From the NCBI RefSeq assembly GCF_023897015.1, contig NZ_JAMHFY010000001.1, positions 248,001 through 312,000 on the forward strand: a stretch of 64,000 nucleotides of DNA, given 5' to 3'. Shown here piece by piece: positions 1-16,382 of the stretch. Both the position numbers and the translations under genes were made by a program. This stretch comes from Desulfosporosinus nitroreducens. GTDB lineage: Bacteria > Bacillota > Desulfitobacteriia > Desulfitobacteriales > Desulfitobacteriaceae. Positions within the stretch are counted from its first letter, which is position 1; every line of letters begins with the position of its first letter. The notes under the pieces are model-generated. The model did no database searches. It worked only from the letters and a program-made list of their open reading frames with translations, and had not been told where the DNA came from.

Positions 1-1122
1 TAAAACAATATCAAATAGATTTAATGGATCAAGCGTTTGACAGTCAACTGGATTAAAAATATTTCCGCAGTTAAACTCTTGAATCTTAGTTATGAAATAA
101 TCTTTAAAACTATCAATAACATTAAAATATAGCCCACTTGAGCGATTATATAAACAAGACCCCACACTATGATATTCTATATCATCAAAGAGTCTCTCAT
201 AGTCACTTGGATTTCCTCCGTAAATCTTATGTAATAAAATAGCAGTATCAGTCTTGACTTTATTAAACTTCGAGGAGTTTTCATGAATAACCCTTATCAA
301 GTCAGTGAAACTAATGGAGTGATTTTTATAATATCTAAGGCTTTTTAAGACCCTTTCAAGAAAAGGACGTTGAGTTTTGTCAGTAGCATCGAGAATTATT
401 GACCAGAACAATGAATCTTCAATAACACTTCTTGGTAAAGGAAATTTATCTCCTTCATTGGTTCTTGTATCAAGTCTATAAACCTTTTTTTCACTAGTTA
501 AAACTGTATCCGAAATGTATTCATCATTGAAGTCAATAAGGATAAAATTACTTTTTCTATAATTTAATCCCGATCTAAACAACTCAGTATACACTTTTGC
601 CAAAGTATTGGACTTACCACTGCCAGTATTTCCGAATATACCAATATGACTTGCAAAAAGCTTTTGAATGCTAAATGCTAATTTGTAGTTATCATAACCT
701 GAAATATTGCCAATCCTAATAACTGGTTCTGTATCTTTTGTAAAGCAGAATATTTTTTGAACTTCATCTTCTTGCAGAACATATACATAATTTGATATCA
801 TTGGGGTTTCATAAACCCCCTTTACAAATGCCTTATTATCAGTAAAATGTCCAAGTATCTTAATGTCTAAAACTCTGGAATAAGTATCCGAATGTTTGCT
901 ATATGAGCTAACATTCTTAGCTTCCTTTATATATTCGCCCTCAATGACTGCAATAATCTCAGTGTAGCCTTTAAGTATTTTGACATAGTTTCCAACAGCG
1001 ATATTCTTTATAACTTTCCCATTATATAAAAGTCTTGATGTGTTTTTTTCTTCATAAACCTCCACTTTAGTGCTAATCCCTACAACATCAACAACTTCTC
1101 CTATCAATAAAATATCATTCAT
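1..1122 (-). CDS. HerA-like (DUF87) ATPase of a SIR2-HerA defence pair, 3' part cut by window edge
   Basis: The frame is open from an ATG at 1122 (preceded by a GGAGGTTAATT ribosome site) to the window start, giving 374 residues with no stop. A hexameric translocase-type Walker A motif GNTGSGKSNT lies at about residues 154-163 (near 610-640) and a Walker B-like FILIDFNDEY at about 193-202. The N-terminal 130 residues are a beta-rich HAS-barrel-like region, as is usual for HerA. It follows the SIR2 gene by 2 nt and its ribosome site lies inside the last codons of that gene, so the two are co-translated. In the known SIR2-HerA (Nezha) systems HerA forms a hexamer bound to SIR2 and the complex acts against phage through NADase, nuclease and ATPase activities. 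Family assignment is by motif and partner; the C-terminus is not visible. Confidence 0.85.
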   Translation of the reverse strand, partial: MNDILLIGEVVDVVGISTKVEVYEEKNTSRLLYNGKVIKNIAVGNYVKILKGYTEIIAVIEGEYIKEAKNVSSYSKHSDTYSRVLDIKILGHFTDNKAFVKGVYETPMISNYVYVLQEDEVQKIFCFTKDTEPVIRIGNISGYDNYKLAFSIQKLFASHIGIFGNTGSGKSNTLAKVYTELFRSGLNYRKSNFILIDFNDEYISDTVLTSEKKVYRLDTRTNEGDKFPLPRSVIEDSLFWSIILDATDKTQRPFLERVLKSLRYYKNHSISFTDLIRVIHENSSKFNKVKTDTAILLHKIYGGNPSDYERLFDDIEYHSVGSCLYNRSSGLYFNVIDSFKDYFITKIQEFNCGNIFNPVDCQTLDPLNLFDIVL

Positions 1123-1124
1123 AA

Positions 1125-2321
1125 TTAACCTCCAAACATCATAGAGGTAAACTCATTTAAATCAATATTTCTATTTTCGCAATAGATGTAAAACACATTA
1201 TAATATTCTTTGAACATGTCTTTGAAACTTTCAACTTCTCGTGCATCGAAAACGAAAATATACATCATCATTGAAGGGTTTGATAATGCTCTTTTTGTAA
1301 TGCTATGAATATGCTCATCTTTAAATGAAAATCCAAAAACAAATAGAACCGAATTATTCTTTTCCAGTTCATTTGAATACATTCTCAACAGATCATAATA
1401 TACGTTTGAAAACAGCGTTTCCTCAAATTTTTTCTTTGTAGGATTAATAATATTTAATTGTTGGTAACCTTCCGTGAATTTATTGATTAGTTCTAATAAT
1501 TCAGAACTAAATTCCACCCTTGATAGATTAATCGAATCAATAGAATCATTTATATTAGTTTCTAAAGATTTATCATACATAAAATTTACGTCTGTAAATA
1601 CATTTGCGTCTTCTTCAATTGATTTCAATATTTCAACAGAATTTGATCTATAAACAATTTGGTCAGATTCTTTAGACCAAGTTAATGAACCATGAAGTTT
1701 ATATATATTTACTGTAGGTATCTGAGATTCTCTCTCCGTGTTCTGAACTATTTGTTTAACTATTTTGTTATAGTTTTGAGTCGAGAATTCTGGTACCAAT
1801 CTACCTGAAAATCCATCGTTATAATAAATTTTGTTCCTCTCCAATGACAGCTCAAAAAACATATCGTAGTTTGTTGTAAATATATTGACTCTCTTAAGTA
1901 AGTTTTTATCATTTCTACTAGACAACAAGCCCGCAAGTTTCAAAATGAATATATTTGAGCTTTCAATGGAACAATTTGTTTCTATATCATCTTTATGGGG
2001 ATAGATACTGTTCCTGAAAAAATCATATAGTATTAGAGCTTCTATTGCATTCTTTGAATTTTGATTATCTTTATTAGTTACAACATTTGCTCCAATCAGC
2101 GATTCTAAATCACCTAAAGTCCTCAACCTTTCATAGCAGTATCCAGATCCGATTAAAAAATTTACGTTACAGGATTCAAATAGATCTCTGATTTTCTGAT
2201 TTAATTTTCCTTTCTTATATTCCTGTTTACCACTAAAACCTTCGCAATAAATTCGAACAGTTTCTTCATCTTCAGATATTTCTTCAACCACATCCATAAA
2301 TTGTTCTGTTTGATCCATCAT
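1125..2321 (-). CDS. SIR2-family NADase-like protein of the SIR2-HerA pair
   Basis: 398 residues. SIR2 signatures are visible: a Rossmann NAD-binding loop FLIGSG at 55-60, the TTNYD motif at 149-153 with the catalytic Asn151, and KLHGS at 208-212 with the catalytic His210. Near the C-terminus FVFGFSFKDEHI is the second Rossmann-side motif usual in prokaryotic defence SIR2 domains. There are no zinc-binding cysteines of the deacetylase type, which fits an NAD-consuming effector rather than a deacetylase. It is immediately followed by a HerA ATPase gene, the arrangement of the described SIR2-HerA anti-phage complexes. The ribosome site is modest (AAGAGAGA) and the start could be Met1 or Met2. 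Function as a defence NADase is inferred from family and neighbour. Confidence 0.87.
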   Translation of the reverse strand: MMDQTEQFMDVVEEISEDEETVRIYCEGFSGKQEYKKGKLNQKIRDLFESCNVNFLIGSGYCYERLRTLGDLESLIGANVVTNKDNQNSKNAIEALILYDFFRNSIYPHKDDIETNCSIESSNIFILKLAGLLSSRNDKNLLKRVNIFTTNYDMFFELSLERNKIYYNDGFSGRLVPEFSTQNYNKIVKQIVQNTERESQIPTVNIYKLHGSLTWSKESDQIVYRSNSVEILKSIEEDANVFTDVNFMYDKSLETNINDSIDSINLSRVEFSSELLELINKFTEGYQQLNIINPTKKKFEETLFSNVYYDLLRMYSNELEKNNSVLFVFGFSFKDEHIHSITKRALSNPSMMMYIFVFDAREVESFKDMFKEYYNVFYIYCENRNIDLNEFTSMMFGG

Positions 2322-2440
2322 ATCGCTTCTCTCTTAAAGTAATTGATTTACTTCCATTCACAATGATTTTTACCTCTGCTTACGGTAAGCAGTTTGTAAA
2401 TGCCTTATTTTATAACAACTAGATTTCTACAAGTTATCTA

Positions 2441-2634
2441 AATGTTCCTGCAATAATTACAAATTTAGAAAATAAGCCAAAGGTAACAAGGCTATATTAA
2501 GTGTGGAACTTTTCATTCATGTTCCTAAATATTCTCTGGCTCTTCATGGTGTTAAGATGTTTCATAATGGATGCTGTCGCAATCTTTAAATAATAACTTG
2601 CCTATGGATATAAATGTACTATACACATTATAGC
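2441..2634. repeat. Upstream homology boxes, copy 1 (in front of SIR2)
   Basis: Two sequence blocks here, 2441-2478 and 2592-2634, recur with about 75-80 percent identity and in the same order at 6214-6252 and 6299-6342. Each pair lies upstream of a minus-strand defence gene (SIR2 here, NACHT there). The second block reads on the minus strand as a GCTATAAT-like -10 region. The DNA between the blocks is longer in this copy. They may be shared promoters or traces of a module duplication. The 2322-2847 gap that contains them holds no other recognisable gene. Confidence 0.55.
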
Positions 2635-2847
2635 CTTTGTCTAATTACGTCTCTGTTGTAAACTACCCCCCAGTCCATAGCTAAGTCCCCTTATTCTAAT
2701 TTGACTTTTAACTCGTAAATAAAGTAAAGTCCTCTTTAGTTAGCTTCCATAATATATCGAGTATATCTTTTTTAAACTAAGGAAGGGTTTAAGACATTCG
2801 AGTAGAATATATTAAGATCGAAATTCCTAAATTTGGAGGTAAATCTA

Positions 2848-3291
2848 ATGGGTAACGATTCTATTGCTTTATCGTCTAATTATTTATGGCATAAGGCTAC
2901 ACTTCAACTTCGGTCACTTTTACCCGAAGAATCATACCAAACTTGGATTGACCCATTAATTCCAAGTTTGGAAGGCAGTCAAATGACTTTATACTGTCAA
3001 AATGAATTTGCTAAGACTTGGGTGGAAAGTCGATATAAAACGAAGATAGATGAAACTGTGCAATCCATCGATCCCTCTATAAAAGAAATTATTCTGGAAG
3101 ACTTTGAAAAAAGCTTCCCCAAAGGAGATCAAAGGAATAAGCAATTTCATCTTAAAGTTGATGAATCATTGTTTGAGCTTATGATGGCAGTCTATGAGAA
3201 AGAAGCTAAAAAAGACATTGATGAAAAGACCTTTGACAAGTATTATAATCAAGTTATTCTTACCTATTGTAGGGAGCGAGTTGGACGATAA
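2848..3291 (+). CDS. Stand-alone DnaA N-terminal-domain (DnaA_N) protein
   Basis: 147 residues. I chose the ATG at 2848 because a GGAGGT ribosome site sits 7 nt upstream; a longer TTG start would overlap that site. The first 80 residues match the initiator DnaA domain I pattern: Trp in LWHKATLQL, then SYQTWIDPL, a beta strand MTLYCQNEF and WVESRYKTKI. The AAA+ ATPase and DNA-binding domains of DnaA are missing. The C-terminal half is charged and unrecognised. DnaA domain I mediates DnaA self-association and binding of helicase or regulators, so a solo copy could modulate replication or act as an adaptor in a mobile element. That role is inference. It is the only plus-strand gene among its close neighbours, lying between two defence genes. 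Confidence 0.75.
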   Translation: MGNDSIALSSNYLWHKATLQLRSLLPEESYQTWIDPLIPSLEGSQMTLYCQNEFAKTWVESRYKTKIDETVQSIDPSIKEIILEDFEKSFPKGDQRNKQFHLKVDESLFELMMAVYEKEAKKDIDEKTFDKYYNQVILTYCRERVGR

Positions 3292-3303
3292 TTAAAAAAG
3301 TAA

Positions 3304-3459
3304 GCGATTTTACGCTTTATTGAAAACGTCGATGATGAGGGTTTAGAAAAGCTATGGAAATTTATATATGACTATTTTGAAGTGGTAGTTACCGACTTCG
3401 ACAGAGAAGCTATAGTATGGAGCGAACAAGAAATTAAGGAGGGAAAACTAAGAGATTAA
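3304..3459 (+). pseudogene. Short open frame without a start codon, possible gene remnant
   Basis: A 51-codon frame opens after a stop at 3301 and ends in TAA at 3457-3459. It reads as a charged alpha-helical tail (for example RFIENVDDEGLEKLWKF), plausible as protein, but has no ATG, GTG or TTG start with a ribosome site. It begins 12 nt after the DnaA_N gene, so it may be the broken 3' end of a second small gene. No family is recognised. Confidence 0.25.
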
Positions 3460-3470
3460 TTAGTCTCTTA
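3449..3470 (+). terminator. Hairpin after the DnaA_N gene region
   Basis: A perfect 7-bp inverted repeat (arms 3449-3455 and 3464-3470) overlaps the end of the preceding frame and is followed by TTGTTT. It is a weak candidate rho-independent terminator for the plus-strand DnaA_N transcript. Confidence 0.4.
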
Positions 3471-3841
3471 TTGTTTACCACTAGCATTTTAATTAGATAT
3501 CAAATCATGTTTAAATTATACCCTCACATGAAAATATCGATATAAGTAAAGCAGTAAATAAACTAAAAAGTAAAACTGCCTTAGGCAGTTACTTATCAGC
3601 GCATCCACAGTGGTAAACTTTTGGCTTGCACTACTATGAGCTGTAAACTATCCTTTTTACAGTTCCTCCCCAAGTGCCATTAATACCTTATTCATAAAAA
3701 GGCTTCAAGGAATTATGCTTAAAGCGTAAAACGCAATAGAACGACCTCAATGAAACGCAGAAGGTTTAAATGCTACTAGGTAAGGTAAGATAATTGAGAA
3801 AGTTAATAAGCTGTAGAATCTAAGGCTTAGTACACTCTGCT
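3471..3841. other. Intergenic DNA with small hairpins between DnaA_N and NACHT genes
   Basis: No gene seen. A 7-bp hairpin with arms 3574-3580 and 3584-3590 (AACTGCC/GGCAGTT) could end the minus-strand NACHT transcript or the plus-strand one. A second small stem lies around 3643-3660. Nothing else is recognisable. Confidence 0.4.
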
Positions 3842-6091
3842 TTATGTCAAATGAACCGAATATGGCAAGCCGCATATGGTATCCATATTTTTGCAATTAT
3901 TAAATTGTGTCATACTCGTCTCGCTCCCTGATAGTTCAGCATCTTCAAAGTCACAGTTTAAAAATACTGCCTCGACAAGATGAGAATAAGCCATATCTGA
4001 ACCGAAAAATGAACTATTTGTTACATTCGCTCTATAAAAATCAGTAGTCTCAAGTGTAACTTCTTCAAAGGATACATTATTTAGGAAGGCTTTTCGAAAA
4101 ATACTATCCACTAGAGAGGAACCATCAAACTTAACATTTGAAATTTTTGCACTAAAAAAATTAGCTCCGATCATGTTCATATCCCTCAAGTCAACGTTCT
4201 CGATTAAAGCAAAACTTAAATCTACTCCTGAAAGATCATTTGTTTTAATTGAATTAAGATAGAAAGCAATATTGCCATCTAATTTAGATAGTATAGTAAG
4301 AGCATTTTTCTTAGCTGTAGAATTAAGTTGTCCAAAGTCGATAGAATTAAATACTTGAGTTATAGAATTTAATAATGGACTATTTTCGAGAATATCACGG
4401 ATAAACAGCCCAACCTCCATACTAATTGAGGATTGACCAAGTACATTATTAATAAATGAAGGTTTCTTATGACGATAATTGACTAAATCAGTGACAATTT
4501 TTGATGCTACAAAATACTCCATAAAAGATTTATGAATAAATTTATAATTCCCAAGTTCATCCCTATTTAGAAATGAACAGCTTAGTATATCATGGCTAAA
4601 ATGATCTATATCCTCCTTAATGTCAATTTTAAAATATTTGTTTATCTCATTTGGTAATACCCTAAAGTTTATCGATAGTAGATTAGTTTCAAACATTTTC
4701 CATGCAATGTGTTTCATGAACATTATCTTTTCACTTGATTTAATTAATGTTTTACCTTTAGAATCTTCTCTTTGCAACCAAAAACCAGTATACAAATCAT
4801 AAAGTGTTGCAGCATTGATTTTTGAGCCTTTTTGAATCGTCAGCCTTGGTATAGTCTCAAGAATGACGTTCAACAAAACGGGTCTTTTTGCAAGATCAAA
4901 TAAATCATGAGTAGTGCGAAGAATATCTAGGAAATCCTTAACATTATAGCCTTTGTCAGTTAATTCTTTTTTATAGCTTGAAATATAATTAATTATCTGC
5001 TCCTCATTAAGATCATCTATTTCGATTTCAGTAAAATTTACGGTGTAGTGATTAGGTTCAAAATGTAATGCCGAAGCTTGAAATATTTTTTCGAATTCTT
5101 CTTTTTGATTAAAAAAATTAGCTCTGCAAGTTACTAATACTTTTGAATTTTCTGATACATATTTACATATTTCAGAAAACACCTTGTGTTTTGTAGAATA
5201 ATCTACACGTTTGGCTATTTCATCGAAACCATCGAAAATTAGTAGAAAGTGTCCAGTCCTCAATAATTCGAGAAATGTTTGGTAGTTTCCGTTTGGAATT
5301 TTACACTTATTAATTAATAAATCTGTAACAAGTTGTTCCATGTCTACAGCTTTACTGTAATCCCTTAAATGAATCAAAATTGGGAGAGGTAAATTTTTCC
5401 CCCTAAGTATATCACTAGCTAGCATGTAACATAACCTAAGACAAAATGACGTTTTACCCGCTCCATAATCCCCCAATATTACAAGAGCATTGTTACTATG
5501 ATCCAATAGTAGATCATTAATTTGATTGATTAAAGTAGATCCAGACTTAGAATTTAGTGAAATATAATGTCCATTCAAATTGCTATTTTCATAATCTGAT
5601 ACCAATCGCTTTAAATAAGGCTCAAATTTGATCAAATTATGTAACAGTTCTGCCTGTGTATATAACGTTATATCTAGACTGGATGCAACCTCTTTTGCTT
5701 CTGGAGCAAAATTCCCATTAGTAACCAAGAAGGCTTTGTCAGCCTTTTTTCCTGACATTTCTTTGTTAAAAACTTGAACCGATCCAGAAAACTTCCTAAC
5801 ATCTACGCCGTTGACAGTGTCAGTTGTTTCGAACTTCCATTTGCATTCAACTAGTATTCCTACTTCTAAAAACCCGTAAGTGAGGGAAGCGAAAAAATCA
5901 TGTTGTGTACTAGCTACTTTAATATTTTCATTTACGTTATATCCCTGAATACGAAATAATTGTGCTATCTGATATTCAAAACTCTTCCCTGCACAATTAT
6001 TACAAAATGGCGATTCTTTGGGAAAAGAGGCTACGTTTTTACATCTTCCTACTTTATCACCAAAACCTACACACATCTTAGATATAGTCAT
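3842..6091 (-). CDS. NLR-like NACHT NTPase with Mrr-like nuclease head and pentapeptide-repeat tail
   Basis: 749 residues, start supported by GGAGG 9 nt upstream. Four regions are visible. (1) Residues 7-33 hold Cys7, Cys17, Cys30 and Cys33, a likely zinc ribbon. (2) Residues 35-160 resemble the Mrr/restriction-endonuclease fold, with Asp65 in QHDFFA and the E-x-K core VECKW at 81-85. (3) The NACHT NTPase has Walker A GDYGAGKTS at 207-215 and Walker B LLIFDGFDE at 283-291. (4) From about residue 600 there are pentapeptide repeats (DLSGVDLSF, NVDLRDMNMIGANF and so on). This build matches bacterial NACHT/STAND anti-phage proteins: a sensor tail, an NTPase switch and a nuclease effector. Substrate and trigger are unknown. 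It lies in an AT-rich island with other defence genes. Confidence 0.85.
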   Translation of the reverse strand: MTISKMCVGFGDKVGRCKNVASFPKESPFCNNCAGKSFEYQIAQLFRIQGYNVNENIKVASTQHDFFASLTYGFLEVGILVECKWKFETTDTVNGVDVRKFSGSVQVFNKEMSGKKADKAFLVTNGNFAPEAKEVASSLDITLYTQAELLHNLIKFEPYLKRLVSDYENSNLNGHYISLNSKSGSTLINQINDLLLDHSNNALVILGDYGAGKTSFCLRLCYMLASDILRGKNLPLPILIHLRDYSKAVDMEQLVTDLLINKCKIPNGNYQTFLELLRTGHFLLIFDGFDEIAKRVDYSTKHKVFSEICKYVSENSKVLVTCRANFFNQKEEFEKIFQASALHFEPNHYTVNFTEIEIDDLNEEQIINYISSYKKELTDKGYNVKDFLDILRTTHDLFDLAKRPVLLNVILETIPRLTIQKGSKINAATLYDLYTGFWLQREDSKGKTLIKSSEKIMFMKHIAWKMFETNLLSINFRVLPNEINKYFKIDIKEDIDHFSHDILSCSFLNRDELGNYKFIHKSFMEYFVASKIVTDLVNYRHKKPSFINNVLGQSSISMEVGLFIRDILENSPLLNSITQVFNSIDFGQLNSTAKKNALTILSKLDGNIAFYLNSIKTNDLSGVDLSFALIENVDLRDMNMIGANFFSAKISNVKFDGSSLVDSIFRKAFLNNVSFEEVTLETTDFYRANVTNSSFFGSDMAYSHLVEAVFLNCDFEDAELSGSETSMTQFNNCKNMDTICGLPYSVHLT

Positions 6092-6213
6092 TTCTAAAAC
6101 CTCCGAAGCCTATTTCGTCACACTCTATCCTTTACAAGCAGTTTCTCTTTGCATTAGGTTAAGGGATTTGCGAAGACATAAATTACTCTCGTCTAAGTTC
6201 AACACATTTTCTC

Positions 6214-6342
6214 AATATTCCTGCTATAAATACAAATATTAGAAAATAATCCAGAAAGCATATGTTCTGATAGGGTTATCAAACCCAAGTAAGCCGTCAA
6301 TAACTTGCCTATTGGAGCAGATGTACTATGTATATTATAGCT
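6214..6342. repeat. Upstream homology boxes, copy 2 (in front of NACHT)
   Basis: Blocks 6214-6252 and 6299-6342 are diverged copies of the blocks at 2441-2478 and 2592-2634. Read on the minus strand the distal block contains CTTGACAAGCTATAAT, a -10-like box close to a TTGACA. Together with the NACHT start at 6091 this gives a leader of roughly 120-250 nt, as for the SIR2 gene. Confidence 0.5.
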
Positions 6343-6385
6343 TGTCAAGAGTGGTCAAATTGTTGCAAAGTCCGCCCCCGACAAA

Positions 6386-6411
6386 AAGAAGGGGTTAGAT
6401 TACCCCTTCTT
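6386..6411 (-). terminator. Rho-independent terminator of the serine recombinase gene
   Basis: A perfect 9-bp stem (arms 6403-6411 and 6386-6394) with an 8-nt loop is followed on the minus strand by a run of five T. It overlaps the stop codon of the recombinase at 6400-6402. Confidence 0.75.
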
Positions 6412-7014
6412 AGCCTCGTATTCTTTTACCTTCCTGTAAAATGTAGCCTTACTTAATCCACTCAACTCCATTGCTTTAACTGCTGTAATCTCTTCTGCTT
6501 TCCATTGCCTGTGAGCATCCATAAACCTTTCCGAGACTTCTATCGTTATAGGTCTACCTATTCCTTTACCGTTATTCCTTGCCTTTAGTGATGCAATACC
6601 TTCCGCTTGCCTAGCTTTAATCTTATCTCTTTCCTTCTGTGCCATATATGAAAGTAATTCAAAGACTATATTACTTATTAAAGTTTTTTCTAGTGTATCC
6701 TTACCCTTAGTGTTTAGCATTGGGGTATCTATAATAATGATATCAACACCCTTTTTGAGCAATGTGTTCCATTCCTCTTTTATCATGTTCATATCTCTGC
6801 CTAGCCGATCCAGTTCTTTAATGACAAGTGTATCACCTTCTCTAAGTAGGGTATCCCTTAGGGACATATATCCAACTCTATTGAAGTCTTTACCGCTTGC
6901 CTTATCTGTGATGATATCCCTCTCATTAGCAACATACTTTTCTAATTCTACTATCTGCCGATCTAAGTTCTGTTCCTTTGTGCTTACTCTTGCATACCCA
7001 TAAACTTTATTCAT
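6400..7014 (-). CDS. Serine recombinase (resolvase/invertase family)
   Basis: 204 residues, typical length for small serine recombinases. The N-terminus YGYARVST carries the catalytic Ser11, and Arg9 is present. ELDRLGRD supplies the second active-site arginine pair. The long E-helix is followed by a GRP linker near residue 155 and a C-terminal helix-turn-helix (AVKAMELSGLSKATFYRKV). A GGAGG site lies 8 nt before the ATG. An inverted-repeat cluster directly upstream (7041-7090) could be its res site. It may be the resolution or inversion gene of a transposon relic; no transposase or terminal repeats were seen next to it. Confidence 0.9.
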   Translation of the reverse strand: MNKVYGYARVSTKEQNLDRQIVELEKYVANERDIITDKASGKDFNRVGYMSLRDTLLREGDTLVIKELDRLGRDMNMIKEEWNTLLKKGVDIIIIDTPMLNTKGKDTLEKTLISNIVFELLSYMAQKERDKIKARQAEGIASLKARNNGKGIGRPITIEVSERFMDAHRQWKAEEITAVKAMELSGLSKATFYRKVKEYEAKKG

Positions 7015-7040
7015 ATCTCAACGCCTCCATATTTACTATA

Positions 7041-7090
7041 GATACAGTGTATCGCAGGCGTATCAAAAGATCAATCGAATATATGATACG
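7041..7090. promoter_or_regulatory. Possible res/crossover site of the serine recombinase
   Basis: GATACAGTGTATC at 7041-7053 is a palindrome, and the arms CGTATCA (7059-7065) and TGATACG (7084-7090) form a second inverted pair 18 nt apart. Clustered dyads directly upstream of a resolvase gene are the usual layout of res subsites. The same DNA would contain the recombinase promoter. Assignment is by position and symmetry only. Confidence 0.4.
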
Positions 7091-7464
7091 TTTAATAATT
7101 GATTTACATACCTTATGACACATACCACATGTTCTGGAAGCATTGGTATGACTACATCCTAAAATAGGCTTAATTCGTATTAAAAGGTACACCTTGTGAT
7201 ACAGATACTTGCAAAAAATTATAACGTAAAATATCCTGATTACTGGGTATGAGACTTACAGAGAGTAGTCGAGGAATTAAGTTGTGAATTCAATTCCTAC
7301 CAAAAACAGTAGAGTTATTATCTGATGGCGAAAGAGAGATAAACCTTTTTGACAATATCTTTCAAGAATGTGGAAAGTTTTTCTATTAACCTATAATTTT
7401 TGCAGGAAATACCATTTGGAAGAAGAAATATTAATTGTATGTTTTCACAGAGAGGGTGTATATT
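7091..7464. promoter_or_regulatory. Intergenic region with promoter-like box upstream of the TPR effector gene
   Basis: No gene is convincing in this gap. At 7392-7408 a TATAAT box is followed 4 nt later by GCAGGAA, about 57 nt before the GTG start at 7465. The same TATAAT-like plus GCAGGAA arrangement is seen upstream of four other genes in this window. It is a likely promoter and start of transcription for the plus-strand gene that follows. Confidence 0.4.
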
Positions 7465-9363
7465 GTGAGTTCCAAACCCGATTTTAATGTAACTTCTTTA
7501 ATGGGTTTAATACGGATTCTCTTCCCAGATGATAGCAATAATTATGATAGTTTTAATTCCTCTGAAAAAGTTGTCCCTTTATTAGAATATGCCAAAAGAC
7601 ATAAAGATAAATTGGTCGCTGAGAATACGGACACAGACAAAAAATATTTGAGTTATTTGGATTTCTTTTTAGTTTGCAGGATGAAGGAACTTTATTGTGC
7701 TAATGGTATGTATAAAGAGTGTCTAGAAATGGAGGCAAAAAAAACTTCGGGTTTCTTTGAAAGGCTAATAAGAGATCAGCAAATTAAGCAAGATCATATT
7801 CCATTTATACTTAATCATTTAATATGTTCGACTAATTTGGGAGTATTAGATGACCAACTAATCAAAGTTGTACAATTGTTAGAAATAGATGAATTATCTA
7901 TTTTTCCTTATGATACATGCATAGAACTTACCGATGAAGATAATCAGCGTCGTTTTATGTCTAATTATCCCAGTGAAAAAATTGTAAATGTTCTAATATC
8001 TTTTTATAAAGTTCTATCCCGTACTGATTTAAAAATTCTCAACAAATGGTGTTTTTCAATTGCACATTTATTCAATGAGACTATACAACTCTTTAATGGA
8101 GAAGAACCAAAAGAGGTTACTTTATCTAATGAATTAATAGAAGACATGAAACAACTACAATTAATTGAAAGCAAAAACATTCTACATTATAACCTACTGG
8201 ATTTTTATATAAATTTGGGATGTTTGTACTTAAAAGATGAATCAGAGATATTTGCTAAAGAATATGAAAATTATAATTCAAACATAGTTATTAATAGTTT
8301 CATCAAGATTTTTGAATCAGATTCTGATATCGAACTTTCCCAAAACATTAAGCTATTAAATACTTTAATTAAAGATTTCAAGGAAACTATTAGGTATTCC
8401 TATGAAATAGAATATATCAAAACTTTAATTGACATTTATAAAAACAACAAATTTGCACAAACGCACAAAGATATCTTTCGAAGTTTGATTTACGATACTT
8501 CGTTAATAGAAAGTATATATGAACTAAAAGAATATGAAATCATATGTACTCTTTACTTTGAAAATAAAGAAAAAGTCAATATGGATGAGCATTTCTTCGA
8601 AATTGCTTACTCATTAAATGAAAGAGGTTACTCGAAAGATGCTAAGATGGCATACGAATATGGCATACGAATTGGCAAAGGATGTAGTGCTACTAATAAT
8701 AATCTAGGCTTAATTTATGAGAAAGAAGATTTAGGTAAATCCTACTACTTTTTTGAAAAGTCACTTCAAAAAGACCCTAAAAATGAAAGAGCAAAAACCA
8801 ATTTAGCAAGAGTAAAAGGCTTAGTGCAAAAGGCACAAAGCGCCAATAAGAAAGACATCTTTGTGTCAACCGCGATAGATTACAATAATAAGTCTCAAAG
8901 GAAGATTGCTATAGTACCATCGGTTTTCAGTATTCCCGATAGACCAGTTCAAAACGATTTAGTAAGCGTTATGATGCCTTTTGCTTCTAGCTTTAATCAA
9001 ACATATTCTGCAATCAAAGAATCATGTTCAAAGCTGACATTACAATGTTATCGAGCTGACGATTTATGGAAAAATAGCACATTTATTCAGGATATTTTCG
9101 AACTAATATTTTGCTCCAAAATCGTGGTGGTTGATTTCACGGGGAAAAACCCAAATGTTTTCTATGAAGTAGGGATCGCACATACATTAGGTAAAATTGT
9201 TATTCCAATTTCCCAAAGCATTGATGACATTCCATCCGATTTAAAAAACCATAGAGTACTTATATATTTACCAAATAAAGAGGGAATGCAGGACTTAACT
9301 AACGGACTATCATCTAGGCTTGATACCGTTATTAACGGACATTCTTGGAGCAAAACAAATTAA
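7465..9363 (+). CDS. TPR protein with C-terminal nucleoside-deoxyribosyltransferase/TIR-like effector domain
   Basis: 632 residues from a GTG at 7465, chosen because AGAGGG lies 8 nt upstream; a TTG at 7435 has no such site. The first about 400 residues are alpha-helical and unrecognised. A TPR-like stretch lies at about 390-450 (NNLGLIYEKEDLGKSYYFFEKSL, SLQKDPKNERAKTNLA in part). The last about 140 residues have the pattern VSVMMPF, RADDLW, VVVDFTGKNPNVFYEVGIAHTLGK. The Asp and the Glu of FYEVGIA match the nucleotide-base-cleaving fold shared by nucleoside 2-deoxyribosyltransferases and TIR-like proteins. Such a domain behind a repeat array suggests an NAD- or nucleotide-degrading immune effector. 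That activity is inferred. A companion gene follows after 114 nt. Confidence 0.65.
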   Translation: MSSKPDFNVTSLMGLIRILFPDDSNNYDSFNSSEKVVPLLEYAKRHKDKLVAENTDTDKKYLSYLDFFLVCRMKELYCANGMYKECLEMEAKKTSGFFERLIRDQQIKQDHIPFILNHLICSTNLGVLDDQLIKVVQLLEIDELSIFPYDTCIELTDEDNQRRFMSNYPSEKIVNVLISFYKVLSRTDLKILNKWCFSIAHLFNETIQLFNGEEPKEVTLSNELIEDMKQLQLIESKNILHYNLLDFYINLGCLYLKDESEIFAKEYENYNSNIVINSFIKIFESDSDIELSQNIKLLNTLIKDFKETIRYSYEIEYIKTLIDIYKNNKFAQTHKDIFRSLIYDTSLIESIYELKEYEIICTLYFENKEKVNMDEHFFEIAYSLNERGYSKDAKMAYEYGIRIGKGCSATNNNLGLIYEKEDLGKSYYFFEKSLQKDPKNERAKTNLARVKGLVQKAQSANKKDIFVSTAIDYNNKSQRKIAIVPSVFSIPDRPVQNDLVSVMMPFASSFNQTYSAIKESCSKLTLQCYRADDLWKNSTFIQDIFELIFCSKIVVVDFTGKNPNVFYEVGIAHTLGKIVIPISQSIDDIPSDLKNHRVLIYLPNKEGMQDLTNGLSSRLDTVINGHSWSKTN

Positions 9364-9477
9364 ACCCTTGTCCTGTAACAAAGGTTGTACATGCCACCTG
9401 AACTTGGTCGGGGGTTAAAGTCCTATATACCTATAACCTTTTAATACATTATGGTTATTTATAGGAGGCTCTTACTT

Positions 9478-10575
9478 ATGATGAATAATACAACCTATAT
9501 CGATTCTCTAATCAGAGAATTTGAGAATAATTGTCCTACTTCTTTCACAAGTGATCAATATGTGCCAAAAGTAAAGGTATTATTCAGCTATTTAACTCAA
9601 ACCTATGACGGAGTTGACAATAGTGATCCTAAAGCAATGGAGAGTTTATTTAAGTATACCATTACTCACAATGATTTAATTGAATCAACGGTATTCTATA
9701 TTAAAGATAAAAGATTAACTTTTGAACAGGCTATATATGATTCCTTAATCTCTTTTAATGCTTTTTTCAAGTTCTTGAACTATAGTAAAAACATTGAAAA
9801 CACTAATTTGATAAGGGTATTTAATAACTCTGAAGAATTGAAGCAGATATATGCTAAAATAAAGATATTATTAAATGAAAACAAGATATTTTTAAAACCT
9901 CGACAACAATATCCAAGTTTACAAGAAGAAGAATTTAAATTTATAAATAATTACTTAATTAGTAATCCTAAACTTACTCAATATAAATCGGTAAAATCCA
10001 CACAATGCCTAATAATTTTGAAACTATTTTTATTATTAGGGTTGAAACCAGAGAAATTATTTGAATTGCCTGCAGACAGTGTTAATTTAGAATACAATTA
10101 TATCAAAATACCTTCGGAGAGTAATAATAATAATCTCTACATTTCTAGATTACCCAATAATATTATTTTTCTTTTTAAGAAATTATATAAACTAAGAGAG
10201 AAAGCTCATCATAATTCAAAAGGGAATTACTTATTTTTTAATCGTAATGGAAAAATGATTGATAATGATTATACAACTGATATATTGAAAGATATAGAAG
10301 ATTTATTTTATAATGAAAACCTTATAGATATAAATCTTAGAATTCTTGATAGAAGTCAGTTTACGCAAAGTGGCTTAACTAAATATGCAATTATAAATAT
10401 GATAAAAGCCAACATACCTCAATCTCTTATTTTAGATTTTACTGGAAATAAAAGTGATATATATGACGATTGCCAGAATAGTGTAAACACAGATAATTTC
10501 AATGAAAATAGTAGATATATTGATTCAAAAATTCGAGGTATAGAAACATATGATTATTTTAATGAGTTGTACTAA
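9478..10575 (+). CDS. Degenerate tyrosine-recombinase-like protein
   Basis: 365 residues from the ATG at 9478, which has AGGAGG 9 nt upstream. An alpha-helical N-terminal core-binding region precedes a domain laid out like the integrase catalytic fold: LFLLLGLKPEKLFELPADSV (box I position), LFFNRNGKMI, then LTKYAIINMIKANIPQSLI and LDFTGNKSDIYDD (box II position). The catalytic residues look changed: the box I Arg is Lys in GLKPEK, the H-x-x-R triad is absent, the usual GH is GN, and only a Tyr is retained near the end. It is probably a non-cutting DNA-binding derivative or a very divergent recombinase. It is in the same direction as the TPR effector gene upstream and may be its partner. Very low GC. 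Confidence 0.6.
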   Translation: MMNNTTYIDSLIREFENNCPTSFTSDQYVPKVKVLFSYLTQTYDGVDNSDPKAMESLFKYTITHNDLIESTVFYIKDKRLTFEQAIYDSLISFNAFFKFLNYSKNIENTNLIRVFNNSEELKQIYAKIKILLNENKIFLKPRQQYPSLQEEEFKFINNYLISNPKLTQYKSVKSTQCLIILKLFLLLGLKPEKLFELPADSVNLEYNYIKIPSESNNNNLYISRLPNNIIFLFKKLYKLREKAHHNSKGNYLFFNRNGKMIDNDYTTDILKDIEDLFYNENLIDINLRILDRSQFTQSGLTKYAIINMIKANIPQSLILDFTGNKSDIYDDCQNSVNTDNFNENSRYIDSKIRGIETYDYFNELY

Positions 10576-11251
10576 TTAATGCATTCTCGTCTGATACTCG
10601 ACACAACCCTTGTTAGTAATTGTTTCTAAGTAATTCCCTCCTTTTTATAAATACAATTACCGTATGGTTCGTAACACATAACAGGTATATGGATGATGAT
10701 GTGTTATTTGCGTACTTTATTAAAATATTATATTAAAACTTTGAGAGATACTTAATTCAGTTTACGATGCTCTAAGCCGTTGGAATTACCTATATGGTGA
10801 ATCCTTGCATTCGAATCATTTCTAACGCCTTAGAGGTCAATTCTAATAAAGTTCAATTCCATAGAACCCAGTCATATCAAAGCTTTTTAGTGTTTTGTAA
10901 AATATCCTATTTAAAGGGGTCAAGGTATAATTTATGAGTCAATTTGAAACTGCAATTTCCCTTGAGCAACCAAATATTAAATGCCTTACTCAAATATTAC
11001 TCTTATTTAAATGTGGGTAATATTTGAGTAGCCTCTACTACTCCTTTCTATATATTTATAGAATTTCTTTCTTTACGAAAGCACCCCTAAAACCCCAGTA
11101 AAATCAGTATGTTTAGAAAAAATTTAGCAAGTACTTTCTGCAAAATAAAATTCACACTGTATATAACTGAAGCATAATTAAAACATTTAATTCGTTAAAA
11201 ATCTTTAATCGTGTACGATTCAATAAACCATAGTATTGTAAAGACTTTCCT

Positions 11252-11397
11252 CTTTTATAGCAACCAAACGGATTTTTACCTTTTTGGTCTATTAATGCCG
11301 AATTATCAAGGGATTATAAGTGGTGAAGTTTCATAAAACAAATCATTTACCAAGCACCAATTCCATAGAAAATTCGGGGATTCGTATGCTATAAAAG
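11252..11397. other. Candidate structured element with nested inverted repeats
   Basis: Arms pair in nested order: 11252-11262 with 11387-11397 (11 bp, perfect), 11298-11304 with 11371-11377 (7 bp, perfect), and 11321-11325 with 11355-11359 (5 bp). A side hairpin 11263-11268 with 11283-11288 (6 bp) fits inside the outer stem. The layout resembles a small multi-branched RNA. No known RNA family is recognised and the strand is not known. Confidence 0.3.
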
Positions 11398-11591
11398 GCC
11401 ACAGTGTATTGCACACATCTTAATGCAAAGAAAATGAAATGATAATTTTCTTTTATGTAAAACCCGTCAAAACGCTTAGGCTTTTACTTTTCTCACGTAG
11501 CGAAGCGGAGTGAAAGAAAATAAAACATAAGGTTTTTACAAAATGAGTGGATCAATATATTAGATAGTAAATTTCTAAGTCTCTTCTTATT

Positions 11592-11651
11592 AGTTGTCAC
11601 CTTTGAGAACCTAATATAAAAATATATATTAGGTTCTCAAAGGTGACAACT
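11592..11651. repeat. Perfect 27-bp inverted repeat with 6-nt loop
   Basis: Arms 11592-11618 and 11625-11651 are exact reverse complements with loop AAAATA. It begins 5 nt past the stop of the minus-strand gene at 11657, so it probably ends that transcript. The stem is far longer than an ordinary terminator and no strong T run follows on the minus strand, so a replication, processing or miniature mobile-element origin is possible. Confidence 0.8.
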
Positions 11652-11656
11652 TTAAT

Positions 11657-12634
11657 CTAGATAGTCTTTTTAAAAATTTCTGCTTTCTTATCAATTAAAA
11701 TTGAAACTAACTTTTTAAATTTTTCTGTATACTCATCATCAAGCCTAAATTCTTGATATTTCATCAACTTTTTACTTCCTATTGCTAACTTAAACTTTCT
11801 AATAGTATCTAAATGCCTAGTTTCTGCCTGTTTAATTGTGTTACTCGCAAATAAATTATTCAACTCTGACTTCAATTCGTTTATACTGGTTAGATCTATT
11901 TCACAACAAAGTTCAATCATTTTAATTTTATATTTATAATAATAAAAGTAGATCTTGGCATCTTTCCAAAGGATCTCTTTTAACTTATTATCATATTCTA
12001 TATATTTACCACTAAATATAACTTTTTGAATAGTATCAAAGTTCATCTCTCTTAATACTTTTTCCTTAGCCTTTTGAATTACTTCAACTTCTTTAGGGGT
12101 CGCAACCCGATAAATATCTAGTGACTCAACTTTTTCATCAACAGTTTTAACAGTTATCTTCTTTTCCCATTTCAGATATTTTTCTTTCCCTAGATTTTGT
12201 AAAGCTCTTTCAAATATATCTCGGAGGTTACCTTTAGTTTTTTGGTAAAATTCTCGAATATAAAATTCATTGATATTTTGCCTCTCTGCAAAGTCTTGAT
12301 TAGTATATTGGAAATAAATGTAATTATCATTAATTAAGGAAAGCTCTTTCAAGAAATAGTTTATAGAATTCTCTAATTTACCATTATTGCTTATAAGCAT
12401 ATTCATAATTAATTTTTGGACAATTTCACCATAAACATTGCTATTGTTATTTCCTTTCTTCAGGTTTATTTTAGGCTTTGCTTTTTCATAAACTTCTTCA
12501 ATGATGTATTTATTACCATTCTTTCTAGCCCTGAAATAACGCTTCCAATTCTGCTCCTGCAAAATTCTACCTTTTCCATCTTTTTTATAAACCTCACCCA
12601 GTAACATGCTCATTTCTCGATTGTTTTTTACCAC
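11657..12634 (-). CDS. Uncharacterised protein of mobile-element type
   Basis: 325 residues, very rich in Lys, Ile, Asn and Tyr. I do not recognise a functional domain. The N-terminal 55 residues follow a pattern seen at the start of many Firmicutes plasmid and phage proteins of unknown role (LLGEVYKKDGKGR, then WKRYFRARKNGNKYIIEEVYE). The rest is predicted mainly helical with a charged C-terminus. Start codon: no strong ribosome site is evident before the M at 12634, and Met8 or Met10 (SMLLGE) are alternatives. It stands alone on the minus strand and is bounded downstream by a 27-bp hairpin. A replication or regulatory role in a mobile element is possible but unsupported. Confidence 0.6.
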   Translation of the reverse strand: MVKNNREMSMLLGEVYKKDGKGRILQEQNWKRYFRARKNGNKYIIEEVYEKAKPKINLKKGNNNSNVYGEIVQKLIMNMLISNNGKLENSINYFLKELSLINDNYIYFQYTNQDFAERQNINEFYIREFYQKTKGNLRDIFERALQNLGKEKYLKWEKKITVKTVDEKVESLDIYRVATPKEVEVIQKAKEKVLREMNFDTIQKVIFSGKYIEYDNKLKEILWKDAKIYFYYYKYKIKMIELCCEIDLTSINELKSELNNLFASNTIKQAETRHLDTIRKFKLAIGSKKLMKYQEFRLDDEYTEKFKKLVSILIDKKAEIFKKTI

Positions 12635-12955
12635 TTGACCAACCCTTAAATTACTTGTTTTAACTTCCAGAGTCCCTTCCCCCTATTTATGCTTTACAGC
12701 TTCTTTAAACGTTGATACTTACCATCGTTTTCACGCGAAACAAATCCTTAATAAAGCTATAAATCTTCTTCCTATTTAGAACACTTTATATACTAATTTT
12801 CACTATTAACATCATTTTGGCTCCTTAATCAACCGTCTGAGTCTCCCCTCGTTCCTCAAATGATATTTAACAAGCTCTGATAATATTATCTATCAGAGTC
12901 TTCACTCTCTGGTTCATGTACCCCAGGCAAGGCATTACAGTAATGTGACATGCAT
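12635..12955. other. Intergenic DNA with one hairpin
   Basis: No gene seen. An 8-bp inverted repeat, arms 12875-12882 and 12891-12898 (CTCTGATA/TATCAGAG), could be a terminator for the small minus-strand frames to the right. Confidence 0.35.
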
Positions 12956-13159
12956 CTATACTGTAACAAAAAACAGTTCATCGCCGTGTTTCTGGAGTAG
13001 CTTCATTAGCTGTTGGAAAGTACCTAAATCGTAGTCTTCTGTCACAGATGCCCAGAACTCCACAAAAAACCGTGAGATAACCTTTGCTTTCTCAATTTCG
13101 AAACCTATTCTTTCATTTCCTTTACATAGGAGTATGGAGTTGATCGGGTACATTTTCAC
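12956..13159 (-). CDS. Small hypothetical protein, doubtful
   Basis: 67 codons from a GTG or the ATG two codons later. No ribosome site precedes it and no family is recognised. The composition is protein-like (WASVTEDYDLGTFQQLMKLLQ), and it could be the 3' end of a decayed longer gene. Confidence 0.3.
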   Translation of the reverse strand: MKMYPINSILLCKGNERIGFEIEKAKVISRFFVEFWASVTEDYDLGTFQQLMKLLQKHGDELFFVTV

Positions 13160-13279
13160 ATACTACTGAGTCTCATATCCAATGATTACTTTCTATTACT
13201 CTAAAGTAAGCTTGAACATTTCACCGTTTAGACATGTTTTAATACAAGCTTTCCTCTAAGACCACTTACACTAAACAGT

Positions 13280-13633
13280 TTATTTCTGATTTTTTTCGAG
13301 TTCTTTAATTCTTCTTTTCAACTCATTGATTTTCTTTTCATATGAATCACACATTTCCTTTTTATGCATTTCCACCATATCTAGGTATTTATCAATTTTT
13401 TTTCGGTAGTCTAACTCTTGCATATACTGTTGTTTTACATTTAGTTTATATCGATAGTTTTTCGCTTCCTTTATTGTAACATCGAATAATTCAGCAATCT
13501 TATCATCATAACATATTTCGAACCACCACAACTGGCGTAAGTTATCAAAGTTCAAATCCTGTAAATTGAGCTTCTCTCCACGTTCCTTACGAGCCAGAAG
13601 CATATCGTAGTAAGGTCTTTTTTCTTCTTCCAT
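13280..13633 (-). CDS. Small protein with HTH-like core and coiled-coil tail
   Basis: 117 residues, start supported by GGAGG about 10 nt upstream. Residues 25-62 (NLRQLWWFEICYDDKIAELF then DVTIKEAKNYRYKL) have the periodicity of a helix-turn-helix of the kind IAelFgVt-x-x-x-V-x-x-x-R. Residues 75-117 are a strongly charged heptad-like coiled coil ending in a Lys/Glu-rich tail. It is likely a DNA-binding accessory or regulatory protein of the element. Function unknown. Confidence 0.6.
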   Translation of the reverse strand: MEEEKRPYYDMLLARKERGEKLNLQDLNFDNLRQLWWFEICYDDKIAELFDVTIKEAKNYRYKLNVKQQYMQELDYRKKIDKYLDMVEMHKKEMCDSYEKKINELKRRIKELEKNQK

Positions 13634-13884
13634 TGTTTTATACCCTCCAATAAAGTAATGATATCAAGTATACCGTCTAGACCAAATTAAATATAATAAA
13701 TTCTAACCATTCCTCTCTAGCAGTTTATAGAAATAAATAAAAAAATAATTTGACAAAGGAATCTAGTATCTGTATACTAGATCTATAATGATCATGCTAT
13801 AATTATTTATATTGATTTAAATAATCCCTTTAATCATAGCATGATAGTTAAAATAGTCAAGCTTTTTTAGTTATCTAAGAATTT

Positions 13885-13912
13885 AATTCCGCTCCATATG
13901 AGCGGAATTTTT
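13885..13912 (+). terminator. Terminator-like hairpin
   Basis: A perfect 10-bp stem, arms 13885-13894 and 13900-13909, is followed on the plus strand by TTT and preceded by AAT-rich DNA, so it could work in either direction. It lies in a 750-bp gap (13634-14383) that has no gene. Confidence 0.55.
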
Positions 13913-14022
13913 ACTGTAATACCTATCATAATATTCTAACCCGAACTTACCTTCGCTATATACTAGTTAGATGTACTCTATCTGTAAAACTATTTGTTTA
14001 GTCTATTCAGAGGCTTCCTACT

Positions 14023-14066
14023 AAAAAACTACTCAACCTCTTTTAAAAGAGGTTGAGTAGTTTTTT
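14023..14066. terminator. Perfect 44-nt palindrome, bidirectional terminator-like
   Basis: The halves 14023-14044 and 14045-14066 are exact reverse complements, with A6 at the left end and T6 at the right. This is the form of a bidirectional rho-independent terminator, although no gene ends within 300 bp on the left. Confidence 0.7.
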
Positions 14067-14285
14067 ATTGTTAATTAGATTTCCTTTAAGGGAAAGCATC
14101 CAACATCATAACTTACATCCACAGCCACGTAATTGTCTTCTACGGGGTTTAAAGTATGCTAGCAAGGTTTTTGCCTGCGAAAATGTTCTGAGTAGCTCAT
14201 ACCCCTCATTTATTAATAGGTTGCTTCAGCTCTTGTATGTATTAAAGCTTATGATATCTTCCTTTGAAGGACGCTTATTTAACAA

Positions 14286-14319
14286 AAACACTCATCCTTT
14301 TAACAGTGATGAGTATTTT
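14286..14319 (-). terminator. Terminator downstream of the integrase gene
   Basis: CTCATC/GATGAG stems (arms near 14286-14296 and 14308-14319) are followed on the minus strand by a T run. It lies 65 nt past the integrase stop. The remainder of 13634-14383 shows no gene; a 105-codon plus-strand frame across this hairpin looks non-coding. Confidence 0.5.
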
Positions 14320-14383
14320 CATTCTGACGCACACAAAGTACGTCTTAAGAAGTTTAAGTCAATAGGTTGATAAGGTTTTTGCC

Positions 14384-15355
14384 TTAATCGATGTTAATAC
14401 CATTTAGTGGACTAAATTTTTGATATTGCCTACCCACACTCTCATTATCTAATTGCAGATAAACCTTGGTTACCTCTAAAGATGAATGACCCATAATACG
14501 ACTTAGCGAATAGAGATCACCCCCATTGAGCAAATAGTATTGAGCGAAATTTGCCCTAATTCTGTGGGGGAATAATTCAATGCTATTCTTTTGACCAATC
14601 TTACGTAAGGCAGTTTCATAAGTCCCTAGAAGCATGATATTTCCCCTATTTGAAGGAAATAATAATTCATTTGAAAAATATCTATCCTTGAATTGAATCC
14701 ATCGTTGCAATTCTTTTCTCATCCTATTTGAAAAGAAAACAAGTCTTTCCTTTTTATTTTTGGTATATCTCAAAACGACTGCCTTATTAGATAAATCTAA
14801 ATCTCGCACATTAATGTTCAAACACTCAGTAATTCTGACCCCTGTATCAAATATAAACAAGGTAATAATATAATTTCTATATCCATCAAATTTAGTTTTA
14901 TCAAAGGAATTCAGAATCGAATTAATTTCACCTTCATTGAGAAGTGGTTTCATTCTTTCAGAACCTTTAAGAAGTTTAATTTTATCAACGGGATTTTTAT
15001 TAATCTCTTCTTCATCCGCTAACCAATTGAAAAACACCTTAATATTTCTGACATAATTATTGATGGTATTCACACTTATTGGTTTTCCACAATCAGCACG
15101 GGCAAGAAAGTTATTTTTAGTAATATCTACTTTAATTCTATTATATTTCCCACGTTCTTGTAGGAAATTTACATAGTGTCGGATATGGGCTTTAGTAACG
15201 CCTTCAACCTTTTCAATTTCGTATGATTTCTTCATGTAGTCGGAAAAGAGTTTTAGCGTTTGTTCATATGCCATTATGGTCTTTTTAGAAAGATTTTTAC
15301 TGGAACAATATAGCATAAATTCTTCAATACTCATGTCAAACTGTGATAATTTCAT
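14384..15355 (-). CDS. Tyrosine site-specific recombinase (integrase)
   Basis: 323 residues from the ATG at 15355, which has GGAGG 11 nt upstream; the frame extends further but without a site. N-terminal SAM-like core-binding domain at about 8-115, catalytic domain at 135-305. The active-site residues are all visible: Arg174 in TGVRITE, Lys near 201 in KNKKERLV, His264 and Arg267 in FPHRIR, His290 in GHSS, and Tyr299 in KVYLQ. It is the last gene of the AT-rich island and points away from spo0A, whose 3' end lies 172 nt behind its start. This is the usual position of an integrase at the end of an integrated element. Confidence 0.92.
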   Translation of the reverse strand: MKLSQFDMSIEEFMLYCSSKNLSKKTIMAYEQTLKLFSDYMKKSYEIEKVEGVTKAHIRHYVNFLQERGKYNRIKVDITKNNFLARADCGKPISVNTINNYVRNIKVFFNWLADEEEINKNPVDKIKLLKGSERMKPLLNEGEINSILNSFDKTKFDGYRNYIITLFIFDTGVRITECLNINVRDLDLSNKAVVLRYTKNKKERLVFFSNRMRKELQRWIQFKDRYFSNELLFPSNRGNIMLLGTYETALRKIGQKNSIELFPHRIRANFAQYYLLNGGDLYSLSRIMGHSSLEVTKVYLQLDNESVGRQYQKFSPLNGINID

Positions 15356-15428
15356 GCAAAAAACACCTCCAAGTTTTTTCAACATAGAGATGTTTGCAGA
15401 CAGAAAGTTTATTACAATCAATAAAACT

Positions 15429-15483
15429 AGTTTGTAGGTTTATAATTGATTTTCAAACCTAGTTCAAATAGTTTGTAGGCTTA
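15429..15483. repeat. Direct and inverted repeats between integrase and spo0A
   Basis: TAGTTTGTAGGTTTA at 15429-15443 is repeated as TAGTTTGTAGGCTTA at 15469-15483, and an inverted partial copy (CAAACCTAGTT) lies between them at about 15454-15464. Such short repeats beside an integrase are candidate arm-binding sites or part of an attachment site. The matching left end is outside the window. Confidence 0.45.
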
Positions 15484-15527
15484 ATTTCCGTTTTATAAAC
15501 CCTGTAACCCTTGGTATCAGTAGATTC

Positions 15528-16382
15528 CTAATACAGTATTGACATACGCAGTTTATCAGCCACCATTGCCACGAATTCCGAATTGGTGGGTTTACCGCGA
15601 TCGACATTAATGGTGTACCCAAAAAAGCGATTCATGAAATCTACATTTCCACGATCCCAAGCCAATTCAATGGCATGACGAATAGCCCGTTCAACACGAC
15701 TGGGAGTTGTTTGATATTTTACAGCAATCATCGGATACAGCTCTTTGGTAACTGCTCCAAGCAGTGAGACATCAGACACCACGTTTACAATAGCATCTCG
15801 TAAGTACTGGTACCCCTTGACGTGAGCAGGCACTCCCATCTGGTGAATCATCCTTGTCACTTCGACCTCTAGGTTTTTAGAGGTTGGAGGCAGTATCCCG
15901 GTGGAAATTTGCGAATTAGAATTGGAATTTGAATTGGAGTTAGCGTTTGAGACACTGTTTCGATTAGACACGGTACTAGAGTTTGAAGCAATATTTACGG
16001 AGCTTGAAAAATCATCTTGTAATTGGCGAATACGTTTACCTAAGATGTCTAAGTCAAAAGGTTTTAAAATGTAGTAATTTGCTCCAAGACTTACTGCTCG
16101 CTGGGTCATTGATTCCTGCCCAAAGGCAGTTAAAATAATTATTTTTGGTCTAAGAGGTGCATTCTGGAGTTTTTCCAATACACCTAACCCGTCAAGGTGG
16201 GGCATAATAATATCTAATAACACTACATGAGGTTCTTCCCGAGAAATTAATTCCAGAGCCTCATTTCCATGATATGCCACCCCAACAAGGCTCATATCTT
16301 CCTGCCGTTCAATATACTCTTTAACTACCTCGACAAATTCTCGGTTGTCATCCGCTAGTAGCACACGTATAGGCCTTTGCAT
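15528..16382 (-). CDS. spo0A: Sporulation master response regulator Spo0A
   Basis: 284 residues if started at the ATG at 16382 (GAGGGG about 8 nt upstream gives [13 protein letters not shown]); an upstream ATG adds 11 residues. The receiver domain spans 4-122 with the acidic pair Asp11-Asp12, phospho-acceptor Asp57 in LLDIIMP, Thr85 and Lys107 (LKPFD). The C-terminal DNA-binding domain covers the last 115 residues with the conserved [17 protein letters not shown] recognition region. The linker at about 127-165 is unusual: a Ser/Asn-alternating low-complexity stretch. A 0A box lies upstream, suggesting autoregulation. Next to spoIVB, as in most spore-formers. Confidence 0.98.

Follow-up and report, generated by a model that had tools for sequence, protein, structure and literature searches.

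What use could a genomic island have for the N-terminal domain of DnaA without the rest of the initiator? The question is raised by a short gene in a 64,000-nucleotide stretch of the genome of the spore-forming bacterium Desulfosporosinus nitroreducens (the window, in whose numbering plain coordinates are given below).

Results

A DnaA domain I fold with a tail

The gene and the parts of its product are laid out as follows.

2835–2839, + strand: Shine-Dalgarno-like GGAGG, read from the sequence
2848–3291, + strand: accessory protein gene, an ATG-started open reading frame of 147 aa encoding DnaA domain I and a genus-specific tail (tail A)
2863–3105, + strand: DnaA domain I fold, residues 6–86 (AlphaFold2; 4tps_B, Z 13.1; phmmer to 4tps, E 5.2e-9)
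3133–3288, + strand: tail A, residues 96–147, two helices predicted at low confidence (pLDDT 57–66 from residue 101 on)

An alternative in-frame start, a TTG at 2833, would extend the protein to 152 aa. The sole Pfam family above its cut-off in the 147-aa protein is DnaA_N (PF11638), which covers residues 13–72 with an E-value of 1.5e-13 and a score of 50.7 bits, where the cut-off is 24.6. The AAA+ domain III and the DNA-binding domain IV of the initiator are absent, as judged from Pfam and from TIGR00362, against which the protein scores 35 bits where 343.9 are required. In the whole genome (5.46 Mb, 95 contigs) there are two DnaA_N matches above cut-off, this gene and the true dnaA on another contig.

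Of five AlphaFold2 models, two reached good means (73.1 and 72.8; the other three, 48.1, 47.6 and 43.6), with residues 11–90 arranged in the order a-a-b-b-a-b at a mean pLDDT of 71–92 by ten-residue block. Foldseek returned 4tps_D as the top match of the model (E 5.8e-6), and the VIA structure comparison ranked the SirA-bound DnaA domain I, 4tps_B, first (Z 13.1, 2.2 A, 81 aligned residues, 30% identity), followed by 2wp0 (Z 10.7) and then 2e0g (Z 8.6). The product of 2848–3291 is a DnaA domain I fold plus a tail. A sequence-only reading of this DNA had described it in just these terms, and both the profile match and the structural alignment that it proposed, which did return the domain I fold, bear the description out.

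An island in the 3′ end of spo0A

The gene lies in a region of low G+C content (0.31 in window positions 1–15500, 0.438 in the rest). Two further features of the island are listed here.

14384–15421, − strand: island tyrosine recombinase, beside the right repeat (PF00589, E 2e-30)
15526–15683: right copy of a 158-bp direct repeat, the 3′ end of spo0A (154/158 identical to the left copy, same strand)

The left copy lies outside the window at G000:C11:243571–243728, 19,955 bp to the left. In the sibling genome G017, which lacks the island, the repeat is present once, and the matches to Spo0A and to the left neighbour end 475 bp apart. The left junction is no clean reversal of the G017 arrangement, since about 470 bp of G017, which include roughly a hundred codons from the start of the left neighbour gene, have no counterpart on the left side here. 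In further genomes where the two matches share a contig, Spo0A and this neighbour are separated by distances ranging from 565 bp (G031) through 2.4 kb (G021 and G024) to 9 kb (G034). Taken at the level of sequence, this region of about 20 kb looks like an integrative element inserted in the 3′ end of spo0A.

On the island, the gene is flanked by HerA and SIR2 genes identified with PADLOC on one side and by a Mrr–NACHT–pentapeptide gene identified with Pfam on the other, both on the opposite strand. The earlier placement of the gene among defence-type genes was therefore accurate. The latter neighbour (3842–6091) encodes a single protein that combines an Mrr-like nuclease with NACHT and pentapeptide repeats. 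Further along, 7435–9363 encodes a 642-aa protein in which residues 546–608 weakly match the PADLOC profile of a TIR effector (E 3.6e-6).

A modular family with its own lineage

Besides the DnaAs themselves, six extra copies of DnaA_N score above cut-off in five of the 45 genomes of the family that we searched; DnaA_N fragments below cut-off in G014 and on G011:C62 stand outside this count. The architectures related to that of the window gene are listed here, with X denoting a further domain.

L068/L135: X–DnaA_N–tail A, Desulfosporosinus FKB
L067: X–DnaA_N, in the same FKB genome
L064/L138: X–DnaA_N–tail B, D. hippei
L065 5581–6795 and L066 5353–6471: nitroreductase carrying DnaA domain I at its C-terminus, from two genera of the family other than Desulfosporosinus
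L132: X–tail B without DnaA_N, G010

In a tree built on 82 columns, with 43 DnaAs remaining after removal of DnaA domains that were identical or unparsed, the six accessory domain I sequences cluster together (100/98) and separately from the DnaAs. The window sequence falls with the three X-fused domains (98/84) on a long branch (1.0), and its domain I is 43–53% identical to these three and 34–38% identical to the nitroreductase fusions. A WIxPxxP motif and a cysteine are invariant in all six, and the two prolines and the cysteine are absent from the DnaA of D. nitroreducens. We reject a truncated host dnaA as the source of the gene, given the separate grouping and an identity of 34% to the organism's own DnaA.

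The X and tail modules are narrowly distributed. Among the 73 genomes of the order, tail A occurs at 15 strong places in 8 genomes and X at 15 in 7, all in Desulfosporosinus; the tail counts leave out weak matches in four genomes (E 5e-4 to 6e-3), and the X counts leave out weak matches in G028 and G445 and keep one match on G024:C32 (E 5.1e-6) apart. Six gene pairs close to the gene for an iron-sulfur protein of 409–411 aa account for 12 of the 15 tail A places (L068, L089, L090, L091, L092 and L094). Both genes are of the X–tail type in five of these pairs, and the first gene of the FKB pair is X–DnaA_N–tail. Two X–tail genes keep a remnant of the DnaA_N end between X and the tail. The X domain is modeled as an alpha/beta fold with unspecific structure matches (best Z 7.6). 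The window gene represents the form without X, and its product is 39% identical to the FKB X–DnaA_N–tail protein across domain I and tail (tblastn E 1.9e-32 against the window).

Because domain I occurs with X, without X, as remnants or not at all, it behaves as a module that is shuffled or lost. By these comparisons the accessory family is a lineage separate from DnaA, with X and tail modules found solely in Desulfosporosinus, and a modular family that is partly carried on mobile islands. The term stand-alone, applied to the protein at the outset, thus suits the window gene but describes just one architecture among several in the family; likewise, the tail that was called unknown is present, but it is a genus-restricted module that other proteins also use.

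A shared promoter-like element

Upstream of the Shine-Dalgarno-like sequence lies a candidate promoter.

2782–2810, + strand: promoter-like element GAAGGGTTT-N11-GTAGAATAT, common to three other island members and matching the sigma-H consensus at 14/15 positions

The form AAGGGT-N11-GAGTAGAATATATT is common to the window gene and the hippei gene, where the element starts at about −65 and about −74 to −75 from the ATG, respectively, and the two upstream regions align locally with a score of 38, where the best of 200 shuffles reached 32. A similar element lies at −68 in the FKB X–DnaA_N gene and the G010 X–tail B gene, so that the four members bearing it differ in domain make-up. When a matrix was built from three sites and the fourth was held out, the held-out site ranked 1 of 255 in four of four trials (scores 19.8–24.5, best control 15.6), a ranking that is not fully blind because the sites were initially picked by likeness. 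The controls were the 254 upstream regions of a set without the four family genes.

Compared with the sigma-H consensus RNAGGAWWW-N11/12-RNNGAATWW as printed in PMC8510167, the element matches at 13 or 14 of 15 positions across members, with AGGG rather than AGGA at −35. Since 19 of the 254 control regions also score at least 13, the sigma-H name is tentative. Two further places match the shared motif at 17 of 20 positions. The element is absent from the tail gene of G008 and from the four first genes of chromosomal pairs that were tested, the FKB one included (scores 11 or 12), and the window gene and the G008 tail gene share no 10-mer that would suggest a common operator. In sum, the window gene has its own promoter-like element, one that resembles sigma-H promoters.

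A surface compatible with DnaD or DnaA

In the data reported in PMC10201431, B. subtilis DnaA no longer recruits DnaD when it carries T26A, W27A or F49A, and the substitutions N47S and A50V make it resistant to SirA. By alignment to 4tps, the equivalent residues of the window protein, T32, W33 and F54 on the DnaD side and N52 and A55 on the SirA side, are all identical. The tryptophan and phenylalanine of the DnaD surface are invariant in six of six accessory domains, as in DnaA, whereas the equivalents of T26 and of N47–A50 vary among the other accessory domains; as these are not all kept elsewhere, the family may have other partners. The host encodes DnaD with its DnaD_N and DnaB_2 domains, and a search of its genome for SirA gave no match at E 1.

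The likeness to DnaA domain I (PF11638; B. subtilis 4tps) thus comprises the fold and the W and F of the DnaD surface, and the difference from DnaA lies in the missing AAA+ and domain IV and in the WIxPxxP motif and cysteine of the accessory lineage. The original proposal that the protein binds host DnaA, its partners or a phage initiator is compatible in its first two parts with these surface residues; the phage initiator as a target found no counterpart, as scans of viral contigs with the whole protein, the tail, X and domain I returned no relative in any of the four.

Discussion

We propose that the protein is a mimic of DnaA domain I that acts on DnaD or DnaA, a reading to which we assign a probability of about 0.4. 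In such a model, the gene's own promoter would drive its transcription, perhaps through sigma-H when cells exit growth. The product would present a DnaA-like surface, including T32, W33, N52, F54 and A55, to DnaD, or it would pair with domain I of DnaA. Competition with, or modulation of, the contact between DnaA and DnaD could then alter helicase recruitment at oriC, and the island may thereby tune the timing of host DNA copying.

Could the tail rather than domain I define the function? The protein might be a DNA-binding regulator related to antitoxins, in which the tail binds DNA or a partner, domain I serves as an interaction or oligomer module, and replication is left untouched. The argument for this possibility comes from the G008 relative of the tail (L063 8365–8724), which starts a 120-aa protein encoded next to primase-like and helicase-like genes and in which residues 50–70 are 76% identical to plasmid proteins annotated as AbrB/MazE; against it, the match spans just 21 residues at an E-value of 0.02–0.03, and we noticed no toxin gene beside either the window gene or the G008 gene. 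No AbrB/MazE-type segment was found in the window protein itself. A second hint lies directly downstream of the window gene.

3304–3459, + strand: antitoxin-like frame of 51 codons with no ATG, GTG or TTG at its head (Smith–Waterman score 71 to a 62-aa ORF of G008)

That ORF adjoins the G008 tail gene, and none of 1000 shuffles reached the score of 71; the frame is probably a 5′-truncated remnant. The small-ORF family to which both belong (about 60 aa; "antitoxin-like" is an impression, with no profile behind it) is rare, with one copy each in 4 of 29 genomes of the genus, and it adjoins a tail gene in two of its four places, the window included, although one of the remaining two runs to the edge of its contig. 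The AbrB/MazE-like segment and the small ORF together offer hints of a DNA-binding or toxin–antitoxin past, and our guess is that the tail may dimerise or bind DNA. A ribbon-helix-helix assignment of the tail lacks profile support: its hhalign score against a profile of three sequences (10.3) falls within the shuffled range (mean 8.2, maximum 15.3), the low-confidence tail model shows helix–helix only, and the Pfam matches of 12 members include no ribbon-helix-helix family. On balance, we regard the antitoxin-like regulator as unlikely.

It is also conceivable that the protein serves the replication of the excised island, at whose origin it would recruit host DnaD, DnaA or the helicase loader, a part that phage initiators bearing DnaA_N may likewise play. 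The island looks integrative, a ParA-type ATPase is encoded near the hippei member, and the profile phrog_26369, named "replication initiation protein", has a C-terminal stretch that aligns with the domain (residues 264–338 of 347, E 7.5e-6), the other three quarters being unmatched by the window protein. An origin is harder to find: the 526 bp upstream of the gene contain a single DnaA box, itself with a mismatch, and neither a convincing cluster of such boxes nor a convincing array of iterons, one-mismatch-type boxes are rarer in the window than in shuffled sequence (50 against a mean of 69), and the X–tail pairs sit among ordinary chromosomal genes. We therefore consider a role in element replication rather improbable. 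As to where the protein came from, a phage or plasmid source of the whole protein was rejected, because neither the viral-contig scans nor the records of phages (six, weak) and plasmids (nine) yielded a full-length relative; none of these records covers 80% of the query, and the phage-record match H3 is an ordinary bacterial DnaA. A search of genome contigs with the single protein gave 31 pattern stretches and no relative.

The truncated frame directly downstream makes decay of the locus possible, and the gene itself might be a functionless fragment of an X–DnaA_N–tail gene that lost X. X does stand in front in three relatives, and across the 28 other genomes of the genus we saw no further gene that combines domain I and tail but lacks X. 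The open reading frame is nevertheless intact and preceded by a GGAGG, its start codon coincides with the domain boundary, and it has conserved residues and the shared promoter-like element; in addition, tblastn detected no remnant of X upstream of the gene, all of which makes simple decay a poor bet.

Least probable is a part in an anti-phage system of the island, as the earlier notion of a link to defence would have it: the flanking genes, the type I restriction system and PDC-M38AB pair beside a tail-only locus and the Mrr-type nuclease near the hippei member speak for it, but the link is unsupported because the gene faces the other way from both neighbours, carries a promoter-like element of its own, matches no PADLOC family at E 0.01 and, in the survey of neighbours in other genomes, has island relatives beside different genes.

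How does a mimic of domain I compare with known regulators? SirA, the B. subtilis inhibitor of DnaA at sporulation, would address the same contact between DnaA and DnaD at the onset of sporulation, a parallel that exists by our proposal only; SirA binds domain I, whereas the window protein is itself a domain I. YfdR, encoded by an E. coli prophage, is likewise a mobile-element protein that interferes with contacts of DnaA domain I; it binds DnaA, with Phe46 of domain I being important, and the account in PMC4776307, as far as it goes, does not describe YfdR as a domain I itself. We speculate further that the islands of Desulfosporosinus, in spo0A and elsewhere, carry co-regulated mimics that are switched on from a sigma-H-type promoter at entry into sporulation, occupy DnaD and restrain chromosome initiation, forming a mobile counterpart of SirA where SirA is undetected. 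This extended proposal is a long shot.

DnaA_N outside DnaA is already known from public profiles, namely phrog_26369 and the hypothetical protein NF005206/PRK06672. The latter has a DnaA_N-like stretch at its N-terminus (E 8.8e-9), and the window protein, scoring 34.8 against a cut-off of 416, is not a member. In literature searches of partial coverage, no work on a stand-alone DnaA domain I from phage appeared among the matches listed, and the DnaA N-terminal domain was not found together with Desulfosporosinus. Nor did we meet, among the titles of the matches listed there, a genus-restricted modular family with a shared promoter-like element and a seat in spo0A.

What would such a protein mean for the biology of these bacteria? 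Known regulators bind to domain I of DnaA; a free-standing and mobile domain I under a promoter of its own would turn this arrangement round, serving as a decoy of the initiator. If the proposed binding to DnaD is true, the family would give mobile DNA a simple handle on the timing of host replication, and it would provide a natural mimic with which to probe the surface between DnaA and DnaD.
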